From NCBI GenBank assembly GCA_017457955.1, contig JAFTGL010000011.1, forward strand, positions 31,231-95,230: a stretch of 64,000 nucleotides of DNA. The letters run 5' to 3'. The notes below the pieces were generated by a model that did not search any database, was not told the origin of the DNA, and was given only the letters and a program-made list of their open reading frames with translations. Of this stretch, positions 25,793 through 30,642 are shown in pieces. Origin of the DNA: Ruminococcus sp. (GTDB taxonomy: Bacteria > Bacillota > Clostridia > Oscillospirales > Acutalibacteraceae). Both the position numbers and the translations under genes were made by a program. How positions within the stretch are numbered: position 1 is the stretch's first letter; each line of letters begins with the position of its first letter.

Positions 25793-26347
25793 ATGAACAA
25801 AAAAGCTGTCGCCGTATCGGAGGCAGTCGGGTGCGTCGTCATCTATGCCGCCGCGGTCGGTCTGCACTTCGTCTATCCGCTGTTCGGCGGGGCGCTGAGC
25901 ATCCTGTTCGGCGCGGTAAACGAGAGCGTATGGGAACACGCGAAGATCTTTTCGGCGGCGTATGTCGGCTGGTCGGTCTTACAGCTGAGCTGGCTGAGGG
26001 TGCGCTTCCGGCAATACCTTGTTGCGAAATGCATCGGGCTGTACGTGCTGATGGGGCTGATCATCGGCGTCTTTTACGCCTACACCGCCGTCACGGGTGA
26101 GAACATTCCCTGTGTGGACATCTTTTCCTCAGCCGTCTCGGTGATAGCGGTGCAGGCGCTGACGTACTTTCTCGAAACCGCCGACAACCGCCTCGGGGAG
26201 TACTTCTCCCCTGCCGTCATGCTGATCCTGCTGTACTATCTGATGTTCTTCTCGTTCACCATCTTTCCGCCGAAGGTCGGGCTGTTCCGCGACCCCGTCA
26301 GCGGCGGGTATGGGGTCATTGAAAAAATCGTCGGAAAAGAGGGCTAA
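25793..26347 (+). CDS. DUF6512-type membrane protein
   Basis: 184 residues with about six membrane helices. The N-terminal part LHFVYPLFGGALSILFGAVNESVWEHAKIFSAAYVGW has the conserved N-E-S-V-W-E-H stretch I associate with DUF6512 proteins of unknown function. AAAGGGGATC precedes ATG 25793. The last helix is followed by FPPKVGLFRDPVSGGYG. No catalytic residues beyond the NESVWEH acidic/His cluster, which could bind metal. It is followed by rlmB but with a 118-bp gap. Confidence 0.78.
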   Translation: MNKKAVAVSEAVGCVVIYAAAVGLHFVYPLFGGALSILFGAVNESVWEHAKIFSAAYVGWSVLQLSWLRVRFRQYLVAKCIGLYVLMGLIIGVFYAYTAVTGENIPCVDIFSSAVSVIAVQALTYFLETADNRLGEYFSPAVMLILLYYLMFFSFTIFPPKVGLFRDPVSGGYGVIEKIVGKEG

Positions 26348-26465: not shown

Positions 26466-27221
26466 ATGACAGACAACAAAAACGACAGATACAGAGATGA
26501 CGAGCTCCTGATCGGGCGCAACCCGATCACCGAAGCGCTTTCCTCAGGACGTTCGGTCATCAAAGTGATGATCGCCAAGGGCAATACCTCGGGCGCGGCG
26601 GTGGAGATCGCCGCCAAAGCGAAGAAGGCAGGCGTGCCGGTGCAGGAGGTCGAGCGCAAAAAGCTCGATTACATGACAGGAGGCGCGGCGCATCAGGGCG
26701 TCGCAGCGCTGTGCGCGGTGAAGGAATACGCCTCGGTGGAGGACATCCTCGCCCTTGCCGAGGAGCGGCAGGAAGCTCCGTTCATCATCATCCTCGACGA
26801 GATCGAGGATCCGCACAACCTCGGCGCGATCATCCGCTCGGCAGAGTGCGCGGGCGCCCACGGCGTCATCATCAAGAAACGCCGCTCGGCAGGGCTGACC
26901 TACACCGCCTACAAAGCCTCGGCAGGCGCGCTTGAGTACGTTCCCGTCGCGCGTGTCACGAACATTGCCGATACCATCGACGACCTGAAAGCACGCAACA
27001 TCTGGGTCTACGGCGCGGATATGGACGGAGAGGAGTACTGCAAAACCGATTTCAGCGGCGGGGCAGCTCTGGTCATCGGCAACGAGGGCAAGGGTATCTC
27101 ACGCCTCGTACGCGAGAAATGCGACGTCATCGTATCGCTGCCGCTCAAAGGCAGGATCAATTCTCTCAACGCCTCGGTCGCCGCGGGAATACTGATGTAT
27201 AAGGTCGCGGAGAAGCGATAG
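26466..27221 (+). CDS. rlmB: 23S rRNA 2'-O-methyltransferase, RlmB/SpoU (TrmH) family
   Basis: 251 residues from ATG 26466. A short N-terminal substrate-binding domain (IGRNPITEALSSGRSVIKVMI) precedes the SPOUT knot with its three motifs: DEIEDPHNLGAIIRSAECAG, ALVIGNEGKGISR, and LPLKGRINSLNASVAAGILMY. RlmB methylates G2251 of 23S rRNA from SAM; other TrmH-like rRNA/tRNA methylases share these motifs, so the exact target is inferred from overall length and the N-terminal domain. The stop codon TAG is followed at once by CCAAAGGGAGCCTTAAG, which resembles the end of the repeat at 43102-43203. Confidence 0.9.
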   Translation: MTDNKNDRYRDDELLIGRNPITEALSSGRSVIKVMIAKGNTSGAAVEIAAKAKKAGVPVQEVERKKLDYMTGGAAHQGVAALCAVKEYASVEDILALAEERQEAPFIIILDEIEDPHNLGAIIRSAECAGAHGVIIKKRRSAGLTYTAYKASAGALEYVPVARVTNIADTIDDLKARNIWVYGADMDGEEYCKTDFSGGAALVIGNEGKGISRLVREKCDVIVSLPLKGRINSLNASVAAGILMYKVAEKR

Positions 27222-27238: not shown

Positions 27239-27254
27239 AAAGGAGATGAAAAAC

Positions 27255-29951
27255 ATGAGCATATTCCGCAGGGACAAGCATAAGGAGCAGGAAAAGCCCG
27301 CAGAGGCGGCACAATCGCTCGCTCTTGAAGCTGTACCCGAGACAGAGCCCGAAGAATTCACCGATATCAGCGACGCGGCATACGACTCATCACGATCTCT
27401 CGACAACAAGATGGAGGAAATCTACTCCACAAGAGATAAACAGGTCAAGTTCAAGCGCATGCAGCCGCTCGAAGCGGAAGCCGCCGCCAAGCGCAAGGAA
27501 GCCGCCAAGGACGACCTCATCCGCGGCAAGCTGGAGTTCAGCGCCGCAACCGACGACGAAACGCCCGAGGTCAAGCTCGAAGCGGAGCTCGACCCCAACG
27601 CCGTCGTCGCCGACGAGATCATCGAGGACATCGTCGACGTCAAGAAGCTGCGCAACATCTATGTACAGGACATCGACGACATCGACGTCAGCCTTGACCC
27701 GATGGAGAGCCTTAACGAATATGAAAAGCGAGCCAACGACATGGCGCGTCATAACGCGCGCGCCGTGCAGACGGAGCCCGAGGAACCTTACGTTCCCTCA
27801 GGTGATACCGTAGTCGCGAAGGTGCCCGTGTATCAGCACGAGGGCAGCGTGGACAAGCTCTACCTCAAGGCGGGACGCTTTACCGACGTGGTCGAGAACG
27901 AGTACGACGAGTACCTCAAATCCACCGACCCCACCATCTCCAAAAACTACCATACGACGAAGCCCCTGATCAAGCCCCATCAAAGCCTGCTCTACACGCT
28001 CAGTCAGGTCGCCCAGCGGCACAGGAATGAGTCCGCCCAGAAGCAGAAGAGCAAGGAGATCATGCGGGACAACTTTGACGAGGAACCGCAGAAGGAAGAG
28101 CCCGTCGTCAAACAGCCGAAGAGAAAGAAACGCTCCCGCGTCGGGAAATTCTTCCGCGTCTTGGGAGCGGTCATCACCTCGAGCGTCACCTCGCCCTCCG
28201 AGGACGAGCAGGAGCGCGCGATGGACTATAACAGCCGCGAGGACGAGATGTACATATCCGAAAAGACCCGCGGCAACATTAAACGTCAGGCGATCAGCCT
28301 CTCGCTGTACGCGCTGATCGCGGTCGCCATGCTGGGGCTTGTGATCTGGGAAGGCGTCGCGGGAGCGGCAACGGTAGAAGCGAACGGCCCCGCAACCGCG
28401 TTCACCTACTGCGCGCTGAACCTGATCCTCACCGCCGCGCTGGGACTTGTCGCCCGCCACAACGTGATCGACGGGTTGAAGCCCCTCATGCACTTCAAGT
28501 TCAACAGCAACACCGTGATCGCGCTGGCGTACATCGCCTGCGCCTTACAGAGCCTTGTCTCGGTATTCACCGGCACGTCCTTTGTCGGCGGCGATCACCA
28601 TCTGTACAGCTTCATCGTCGCGTTCGCGCTGATCCTCAGCACCACGGGACGCCTGCTGATGGCAGTACGCGTGCAGAGCAACCTGAGTTTTATCAGCGAG
28701 CGTTCTCCCGCCTACGCGGCAAAGATCTATAATGACGAGGAAACCGCCCGCCGCTTAGTCAGCGGCACCACCACCTCGCGCGGAGTGGTCGCTTACCAGC
28801 ACGTGACGAGCTTCCTCTCCGACTTTCTGAAAATCTCCTACGCACCCGATCCCAGCGAGGAGCTGACCGGCAAGATGGCGCCCATCGCCATCATCAGCTC
28901 GCTGGTCGTCACCATCCTGTACGCCTTCATCTTCAAGAGCGTGCAGGGCGCGGTATCGGCGCTGGCAGTCATGCTGTGTATCGGTATCCCCTTCACCGGC
29001 ATGCTGGCAGGCAACCTGCCGCTGCTGATCTTCAGCCGCCGCATGCTCAAGGAGGATGCGATGGTCGCGGGTTATCCCTCGGTGCGTCAGTTCTGCGACA
29101 CCTCCGCGGTCATGATGAGCGCGGCTGACCTCTTCCCCGCGGGCTGCGTCACGATTGAAGAGCTCCTGCCCTTACAGCAGTACCGCGTCAACGAAAGCCT
29201 TTTGATGGCGACGGCGGTACTCAGGGAGGGCAACTCCCCCATCGCCCCCGCCTTTGACGAGCTGGTGATGGAGAACAACGGCGTGCTGCCCTCGGTCGAG
29301 AGCGTCATGTACGAGGACAAAAGCGGGCTGGTTGGCTGGATCGGCGGCGAACGCGTGCTGATCGGCAACATGAAGCTGATGAACCGCTACCACATCACCA
29401 TCCCGATGGACGTATCCCCCCGCCGCAAGAACGAAAAGGGTGCGGACATCACCTATATCGCGATCTCGGGTCAGGCGGTCGCCATCCTCGCGCTGAAATA
29501 TACCGCGAACAAGATCGCCAAGGATCAGATTGGGCGTGCCGAGAGAAGCGGACTGGCTCTCGTGGTCAGCACCACCGACGCAAACATCACCGCGGAGCTG
29601 ATCGCCGACCGCTACGGCGTATTCTTCCGCTCGGTCAAGGTCACCGCCCCGGGCTACTCCAACGTTATCGACGAAGCGATCACCAAGGTGGAAGAGACCT
29701 CCCGCGCCTATTTAGCGACCCGCGGACGGATCGGTTCGCTGGCGCGTGCCATCGGCGGGTGTATCGGGCTCAAATCCAACATCAGCCTCGGCATCGTCAT
29801 CGAGATCTTCGGCACCCTGCTGGGGATCCTGCTGAGTGCGACGCTCGCGCTGTACGCCTCGGTCGCGCGGCTCTCTATCGTGGAGCTGATGATCTACATC
29901 GGCTTCTGGGTAGGAGCGACGATCATCGCGGAGCTGATCAAGAGACCGTAA
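27255..29951 (+). CDS. Degenerate P-type-ATPase-like membrane protein (pseudo-ATPase)
   Basis: 898 residues from ATG 27255 (GGAG 9 nt upstream; ATG 27246 abuts the Shine-Dalgarno). Residues 1-340 are charged, acidic and probably disordered, ending in KRKKRSRVGKFF. The rest follows heavy-metal P1B ATPases: four helices, a pair with CIGIPFTGMLAGNLPLLIF where the CPC helix should be, a P/N-like region, and two final helices. The phosphorylation site DKTGTLT is replaced by DTSAVMM (Asp615). The TGES actuator motif is absent, the TGD-type motif reads STTDAN, and GDGxNDxP is missing. Remnants such as LIGNMKLMNRYHI and ITYIAISGQAVAILALKY keep the N/P-domain pattern. It cannot be expected to hydrolyse ATP. 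It lies between rlmB (33 bp) and rpe (40 bp). Function unknown. Confidence 0.72.
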   Translation: MSIFRRDKHKEQEKPAEAAQSLALEAVPETEPEEFTDISDAAYDSSRSLDNKMEEIYSTRDKQVKFKRMQPLEAEAAAKRKEAAKDDLIRGKLEFSAATDDETPEVKLEAELDPNAVVADEIIEDIVDVKKLRNIYVQDIDDIDVSLDPMESLNEYEKRANDMARHNARAVQTEPEEPYVPSGDTVVAKVPVYQHEGSVDKLYLKAGRFTDVVENEYDEYLKSTDPTISKNYHTTKPLIKPHQSLLYTLSQVAQRHRNESAQKQKSKEIMRDNFDEEPQKEEPVVKQPKRKKRSRVGKFFRVLGAVITSSVTSPSEDEQERAMDYNSREDEMYISEKTRGNIKRQAISLSLYALIAVAMLGLVIWEGVAGAATVEANGPATAFTYCALNLILTAALGLVARHNVIDGLKPLMHFKFNSNTVIALAYIACALQSLVSVFTGTSFVGGDHHLYSFIVAFALILSTTGRLLMAVRVQSNLSFISERSPAYAAKIYNDEETARRLVSGTTTSRGVVAYQHVTSFLSDFLKISYAPDPSEELTGKMAPIAIISSLVVTILYAFIFKSVQGAVSALAVMLCIGIPFTGMLAGNLPLLIFSRRMLKEDAMVAGYPSVRQFCDTSAVMMSAADLFPAGCVTIEELLPLQQYRVNESLLMATAVLREGNSPIAPAFDELVMENNGVLPSVESVMYEDKSGLVGWIGGERVLIGNMKLMNRYHITIPMDVSPRRKNEKGADITYIAISGQAVAILALKYTANKIAKDQIGRAERSGLALVVSTTDANITAELIADRYGVFFRSVKVTAPGYSNVIDEAITKVEETSRAYLATRGRIGSLARAIGGCIGLKSNISLGIVIEIFGTLLGILLSATLALYASVARLSIVELMIYIGFWVGATIIAELIKRP

Positions 29952-29991: not shown

Positions 29992-30642
29992 ATGCTGATA
30001 GCACCATCCCTCTTATCCTGTGACTTTTCCATTTTCCGTGACGAGATCATCCGCGCCGACAAGGCGGGAGCCGATCTTATGCACCTCGACGTGATGGACG
30101 GGCACTTCGTCCCGAACCTGACCTTCGGCGCGCCTGTCATCAAAAAGCTGAGAAACGCCACCGAAAAGCCCTTTGACGTTCACCTGATGATCTCAGAGCC
30201 GCACCGCTACATCGGCGACTTCGCCGACGCGGGCGCCGATATCATCTCGTTCCATACCGAGTCTGACAGCGACATCGGCGAGACCCTGAGCCTGATCGAA
30301 GAGCGCGGCGTCAAGCCCGCTTTAGCCATTAAACCAGGCACCTCTCCCGACGTCGTCCTGCCGTATCTTGACAGGCTGTACATGGTGCTGGTCATGACCG
30401 TGGAGCCCGGCTTCGGCGGTCAGAGCTTCATGCCCGACATGATGGAAAAGGTCACGTTCCTGAGAAAAGAGATCGAAGAAAGAGGACTCGACACCCTGAT
30501 CGAAGTCGACGGCGGTATCGCGAAGAGCACCATCGCCACAGCCGCGAAAGCGGGCGTAGATATCTGCGTCGCGGGCACGGCGGTATTCGGCGAGCCCGAC
30601 GCAAAGGAAGCGATCGACACGCTCAAATCTCTTTGTGAATAA
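29992..30642 (+). CDS. rpe: Ribulose-phosphate 3-epimerase
   Basis: 216 residues, normal length. TIM-barrel signature: IAPSLLSCDF, the metal-binding HLDVMDGHFVPNLTFG, DVHLMISEPHRYI, MTVEPGFGGQSFMP, and EVDGGIAKSTI. It interconverts ribulose 5-phosphate and xylulose 5-phosphate in the cytosol (pentose phosphate pathway). TTAGGAG lies before ATG 29992. It ends the rlmB-pseudo-ATPase-rpe gene string and has a strong terminator. Confidence 0.97.
   Translation: MLIAPSLLSCDFSIFRDEIIRADKAGADLMHLDVMDGHFVPNLTFGAPVIKKLRNATEKPFDVHLMISEPHRYIGDFADAGADIISFHTESDSDIGETLSLIEERGVKPALAIKPGTSPDVVLPYLDRLYMVLVMTVEPGFGGQSFMPDMMEKVTFLRKEIEERGLDTLIEVDGGIAKSTIATAAKAGVDICVAGTAVFGEPDAKEAIDTLKSLCE

Follow-up and report, generated by a model that had tools for sequence, protein, structure and literature searches.

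On the forward strand of the window, a 64,000-nucleotide stretch of a contig from Ruminococcus sp., an open reading frame with the outline of a heavy-metal P1B ATPase and without its catalytic motifs lies between rlmB and rpe (Table 1). Both flanking genes were identified with NCBIfam equivalog models scoring above their cut-offs. Residues of the window protein are numbered from the ATG at 27246, and the ATG at 27255 has a better-spaced Shine-Dalgarno sequence (AAAGGAG). The initial annotation described an intact frame of 898 codons with normal codon use, and both descriptions hold: the frame is unbroken from 27255 (901 residues if counted from 27246), and its relative synonymous codon usage correlates with that of four neighboring genes at 0.95, as against 0.21 and 0.01 for the two other frames. 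At 25793-26347 the window also encodes a small membrane protein with the sequence NESVWEH, whose cluster is present in 7 loci.

Table 1. Genes, domains and motif positions at the rlmB-rpe locus (coordinates are those of the window).
Feature	Coordinates	Strand	Remarks
rlmB, 23S rRNA (guanosine(2251)-2'-O)-methyltransferase	26466..27221	+	TIGR00186, 253.9 bits (cut-off 160.15); 24 nt upstream
Pseudo-P1B-ATPase gene	27246..29951	+	901 codons from 27246; likelier start 27255, giving 898 aa
N-terminal region, residues 1-340	27246..28265	+	Mildly acidic; probably disordered (from composition); 0 Cys; median dN/dS 0.178 (residues 1-300)
Hydrophobic segments 1-4, residues 349-471	28290..28658	+	Align with first four P1B ATPase membrane segments
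A domain remnant, residues 477-544	28674..28877	+	TGES-bearing core deleted; median dN/dS 0.061, most constrained region tested
CPC position, I581-P582-F583	28986..28994	+	Both Cys lost, Pro kept
DKTGTLT position, S625-A-A-D-L-F-P631	29118..29138	+	Family motif xxx[DE][LI][FY]P
SEHP position (N domain), G662-N-S-P665	29229..29240	+	From alignment
GxG position (N domain), K692-S-G694	29319..29327	+	From alignment
TGD position, T776-T-D778	29571..29579	+	D in 33/35 order-level and 78/79 named rows
GDGxNDxP deletion site, residues 816/817	29691..29696	+	From hhalign alignment
M5 position of CopA Tyr-Asn, I852-E853	29799..29804	+	From alignment
rpe, ribulose-phosphate 3-epimerase	29992..30642	+	TIGR01163, 266.7 bits (cut-off 212.6); 40 nt downstream

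The protein has eight hydrophobic segments (residues 349-367, 385-403, 423-441, 453-471, 540-558, 561-579, 846-864 and 867-885) that fall as 4+2+2, which is the membrane layout of P1B ATPases and agrees with the layout first proposed for it. The profile search suggested in the initial annotation upheld the P1B relationship, with hhalign aligning the protein to four genuine P1B ATPases at 99.7% (E 1.2e-25, 570 columns), and a wider family profile (115 rows, 95 used) at 99.9% (E 8.4e-36, 516 columns). Among NCBIfam models the window protein matched CopA at E 1e-11 and ATPase-IB_hvy at E 3.9e-11, both scores being far below the models' cut-offs, and a sequence search of the PDB returned the CopA structure 3rfu at E 1.3e-11, or at E 1.1e-17 with a 68-row profile. 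Pfam had no significant match to the window protein, nor to its core of 603 residues, and at E <= 0.01 its models PF00702 and PF03303 were touched by three and one, respectively, of 68 aligned family members. Judged by these profile alignments, homology to P1B ATPases is shared across the membrane, N and P domains, that is, over almost the whole core. In front of this core lies an N-terminal region that is as long as first described, 340 residues, but only mildly acidic, since 72 D/E against 54 K/R leave a net charge of -18.

The state of the catalytic motifs was scored over 35 order-level and 79 named rows of aligned relatives, the named loci being the best 80 of 245 found and belonging mostly to Ruminococcus, Oscillospiraceae, Clostridiales or Clostridia assemblies; two rows were dropped, L031 for a TGA-broken ORF of <500 aa and L111 for truncation. 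A separate family alignment comprised the window protein and 67 of the 80 named loci. In L031 (G057:C38:4815-6485, from a 1.4 Mb genome) a single in-frame TGA interrupts the family gene, for which an error in sequencing, gene decay or an altered genetic code could account, and in L041 (6221-8448) the family gene is split across two overlapping frames in that assembly.

The phosphorylation motif DKTGT is replaced in all of these relatives, mostly by a motif of the form [DE][LI][FY]P: position 628 is D or E in 30/35 order-level and 75/79 named rows, position 630 is F or Y in 32/35 and 79/79, and position 631 is P in 28/35 and 79/79. The lysine of DKTGT is found in none of the 35 order-level or 79 named rows, and the string itself in 0/66 aligned family ORFs and 0/80 named ORFs. 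The initial annotation was thus right that DKTGT is lost, but it read DTSAV (618-622) as the equivalent residues, a candidate that we rejected because four alignments place it upstream and align SAADLFP (625-631) instead; accordingly, it is [DE][LI][FY]P that is conserved in the place of DKTGTLT, and not the proposed DTSA. The other losses follow the first description more closely. TGES falls within an alignment deletion together with its surroundings, and as a string it occurs once in each set (1/66 and 1/80 ORFs), the two places being residue 15 and the N domain, never the A-domain position. GDGxNDxP is likewise gone in an alignment deletion, with the string GDGxND in 0/66 and 1/80 ORFs, the single case lying in an N-terminal tail. 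The helix that had been read as CIGIP has indeed lost both cysteines of CPC, although the aligned triplet is the overlapping IPF, and the site that had been read as STTDAN in place of TGD reads TTD, so that its T and D are still there.

These positions bear on two alternative readings in which the old machinery would still serve. In one, the family members are active P-type ATPases with an unusual mechanism that works through the retained aspartates, as might be suggested by an aspartate at the nucleophile position in 12/35 order-level and 35/79 named rows and by the nearly invariant D778; however, the window protein has serine at the nucleophile position, the lysine beside it is lost throughout, and both TGES and GDGxND are deleted, making this reading very improbable. 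The nucleophile-position aspartate of some members, and the first glycine of GxG, present in 13/35 order-level rows (the last glycine is present in 34/35 and 79/79), nevertheless count against the pseudoenzyme reading favored below. In the other, the protein is a metal (copper) sensor, or a channel through which metal passes along the old pathway passively and with no need of ATP. The retained membrane layout and M4 proline (P582 in 25/35 order-level and 79/79 named rows) would fit such a role, but the window protein has neither CPC cysteine, lacks the Tyr-Asn pair that has a copper role in M5 of CopA, and contains no cysteine within residues 1-340, while cysteine occurs at position 581 in only 2/35 and at position 582 in 2/35 order-level rows, and we consider this reading improbable.

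The family extends across the order, which we take to be Oscillospirales. Of 245 genomes from the order, 226 match at E <= 1e-6, some of the weak matches possibly being true P1Bs: in 27 of these genomes the best E is >1e-12, near the range of P1B-like matches (down to 5e-11), which leaves about 199 that can be trusted by score alone. Within the genus, an ortholog of at least 38% identity is present in 34 of 36 genomes, the window's own included, and a search of relatives gave matches at E <= 0.001 in 58 of 59 genomes, the top match in G021 and in G031 being P1B-like, at 19-20% identity. At the level of the class, 15 of 291 genomes match at E <= 1e-20, of which 12 (again including the window's own) belong to the order; in the remaining three the match is a true P1B ATPase in which DKTGT, TGES and GDGxND are all present; no genome of the order was among the no-match genomes listed in that search.

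Eleven genomes in which the single-protein search had found no ortholog (nine of the 19 misses in the order, and G021 and G031) were examined through their rlmB loci. An RlmB ortholog (46-53% identity) was found in five, and in four of these the next gene is family-like and without DKTGT, scoring 302, 262, 249 and 174.5 bits with the family HMM; since this HMM also gives true CopAs 53-183 bits, the last of these genes is separable from CopA not by score but only by its missing DKTGT. The fifth locus is cut by the contig end, but the reading frame that follows rlmB there has the N-terminal motif described below. Neither rlmB nor the pseudo-ATPase was found in the other six genomes, and because the two genes adjoin, an assembly gap could explain the absence of both. 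In a maximum-likelihood tree, 41 family members form one clade against five true ATPases (100/99), and in a second, 16 members form one clade against 23 CopAs (100/100).

Purifying selection acts along the whole chain. For 14 genes of close relatives (91 pairs, of which 75 were usable for the A-domain remnant), median dN/dS was 0.236 over the first four membrane segments, 0.199 over the P/N head and 0.181 over residues 301-901, with the values for the N-terminal region and the A-domain remnant given in Table 1. The loss of catalytic motifs would be expected of a decaying pseudogene, a reading against which order-wide retention and regional medians of 0.06 to 0.24 both speak, so that we find it scarcely credible, in keeping with the initial annotation, which had taken the gene to be kept by selection. 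The spread of the pseudo-ATPase through the order, its place next to rlmB and the purifying selection on it are all shown by the data.

The initial annotation had singled out the rlmB-rpe neighborhood as something to be tested for conservation, and the two sides differ. On the upstream side, rlmB directly precedes the pseudo-ATPase gene on the same strand in 36/36 order-level loci (31 by blast cluster and five from the ORF list), and it lies upstream on the same strand in 30/30 genus loci and in 77/80 named loci, where the three exceptions have <1 kb of upstream sequence; by tblastn, rlmB lay upstream in 31/31 order-level loci, while at the other five the window protein itself found no match. 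On the downstream side, rpe is the neighbor in 30/30 genus and 79/80 named loci but in only 1/31 order-level loci, and we rejected it as a conserved partner because the adjacency is confined to the genus. Downstream genes on the same strand vary widely across the order-level loci, and in 5/36 loci the next 700 nt contain no ORF on that strand.

The near-universal adjacency to rlmB raises the possibility that the protein is linked in function to RlmB and anchors ribosomes or the translation machinery at the membrane. Translation-related genes lie downstream in 11/36 order-level loci (a raw count, uncorrected for background), comprising seven EF-G-like genes (L031, L039, L042, L046, L050, L064 and L066; three assigned by Pfam EFG domains and four by blast cluster), two YebC/TACO1 genes, one release factor and one Era-like gene, the last encoding a ribosome-binding GTPase with a KH domain. 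Against this, the remaining downstream genes are diverse or, in the five loci noted above, missing, housekeeping genes often adjoin by chance, and co-transcription need not imply joint function. We regard such an anchor as unlikely, if the least so of the alternatives considered here.

To ask what else can stand behind rlmB, the adjoining DNA was read in 39 genomes outside the order, out of 91 with an RlmB match and with L378 dropped beforehand as a duplicate of L364; the 98 nt flank of L358 was uninformative, which leaves 38 informative loci. Five other flanks measured 1.2 to 2.6 kb, and the remainder were about 3.7 kb long. Three of the 38 (L346, L354 and L371) have an intact copA in the same slot, and all three belong to family f43, being the only f43 genomes sampled. 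These CopAs, from another family of the same class, are homologous to the window protein and lie on the same strand as rlmB, 17-22 nt after the rlmB match, but they retain CPC, TGES, DKTGT, SEHP, TGD and GDGIND as well as an N-terminal MxCxxC. None of the other 35 informative loci has a downstream ORF matching the family HMM at 1e-3. Because an intact copA occupies the same slot in these three loci outside the order, the pseudo-ATPase probably descends in place from an rlmB-copA pair. In the protein tree the pseudo-ATPase clade does not stand beside the rlmB-linked CopAs, a placement that is nonetheless not rejected (p-AU 0.104); the RlmB tree does not discriminate either (p-AU 0.324), and the rlmB-linked CopAs are not singled out by HMM scores.

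The N-terminus varies within the family. About half of the order-level members carry an FSLDDILAE-like motif ([FY]S[LIV]DDILxE-like) near the start of the chain, which is absent from the window protein itself. Scored within the first 90 residues and with expectations taken from shuffles, the loose form of the motif occurs in 17/35 order-level rows (0.12 expected) and 26/80 named rows (0.23 expected), and the strict form in 10/35 order-level rows (0.0 expected) and 0/80 named rows. At the DNA level, 32 of 117 genomes contained a total of 34 matches to the strict pattern, and a reversed-pattern control had 0; of 30 such loci that were read, 18 are in our reading members of the pseudo-ATPase family, 10 are internal or unrelated, and two are cut, leaving their membership undecided. 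A second DNA pattern gave 10 matches in 197 genomes and one in the control. Two members of family f10 (L038 and L069) have no long N-terminal region, and the long tail is therefore not required everywhere.

Related motifs were seen in other arrangements, and at a terminus of two other membrane proteins. Two tandem copies of such a motif occur in each of the family members at L247 and L248. At L252 (the same gene as L212), an ABC-2 permease (PF01061) on the minus strand begins with SDKFSIDDILAEIG and has a tail of about 190 residues that resembles many pseudo-ATPase N-termini, and at L249 an LspA-like protein has a long tail ending in EYSLEDILAEFRDI. Both are single cases: the motif was found in 0/50 other LspA ORFs from genomes with a match in the LspA search. 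It was also found in none of 30 LCP loci, a weak test in that some of the chosen ORFs look wrong-strand. The tails of the pseudo-ATPases and the extensions of RlmB were compared for a pairing of charges, and none was seen in general.

Retention across most sampled genomes of the order, beside rlmB and under selection, points to a new job for the protein. The explanation that we favor, and to which we would give about an even chance, is that it is a pseudoenzyme derived from a CopA-type ATPase that serves as a non-cycling membrane scaffold or adaptor. The ancestor would have been a CopA-type copper ATPase, encoded beside rlmB, that probably lost its activity in place; its membrane core and N domain survive, as does most of its P domain. 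The window protein has lost, by substitution or deletion, the positions that serve phosphorylation, dephosphorylation, ATP contact and copper ligation, and no pumping cycle is expected of it; that the protein should not pump is our reading of these losses, which are themselves evident from the sequence. In this reading the P/N head, now degenerate, would act with the long tail to bring a cytosolic partner to the membrane. Alternatively, the protein could be a regulatory subunit that pairs with and tunes the cell's true CopA-like pump, for which candidates are at hand: the window's genome has two true P-type ATPases, and 17 of 17 further P1B-like loci from genomes of the order contain an ORF with DKTGT and CPx. 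No linkage to true pumps was seen, however, and we know of no P1B ATPases that act as hetero-oligomers, so that we rate a regulatory subunit as unlikely too, placing it after the ribosome anchor and before the metal sensor or channel.

P-type ATPases are among the best-studied pumps, and to our knowledge no order-wide pseudoenzyme of this superfamily has been known before. The open-licence literature yielded no widely conserved dead bacterial lineage and no report of pseudo-P-type ATPases, of rlmB with a P-type ATPase, or of Oscillospirales CopA, and a review describes no such catalytically dead family in those of its sections that were available (PMC10654040). Taken together, the findings can be drawn into a broader proposal, which in our judgment is as apt to stand as to fall: a P-type pseudo-ATPase, one of the core proteins of the whole order, evolved at its present site from a copper pump linked to rlmB and came to serve universally as a scaffold in the membrane, its active site carrying a new motif and its N-terminus often a docking tail. 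If a fold is retained throughout an order without catalysis, its cytoplasmic head and its membrane core would have to serve some other purpose, one that can be tested through rlmB, the conserved partner gene.

Among known systems, the CopA-type copper-exporting P1B ATPases (PDB 3rfu; NCBIfam PRK10671) share with the window protein the eight membrane segments, the N domain, most of the P domain, the M4 proline, and the T and D of TGD. The window protein differs from them in the loss or deletion of CPC, DKTGT, TGES, SEHP, GxG and GDGxND and in a long cysteine-free N-terminus where CopA has its metal-binding domain, and the pseudo-ATPase family differs in its new [DE][LI][FY]P motif. A second comparison is offered by the human P-type-like protein TMEM94, which is presumably the same protein as ERMA. 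For TMEM94 it is reported that TGES is absent and that neither ATP binding at D417 nor a catalytic cycle was seen in detergent (PMC12134183); ERMA is described in another report as an ER Mg ATPase (PMC13322241), so that the status of TMEM94 is disputed. TMEM94 is the nearest precedent that we found, P-type-like and without TGES in the same way as the window protein, but eukaryotic and with ten helices.
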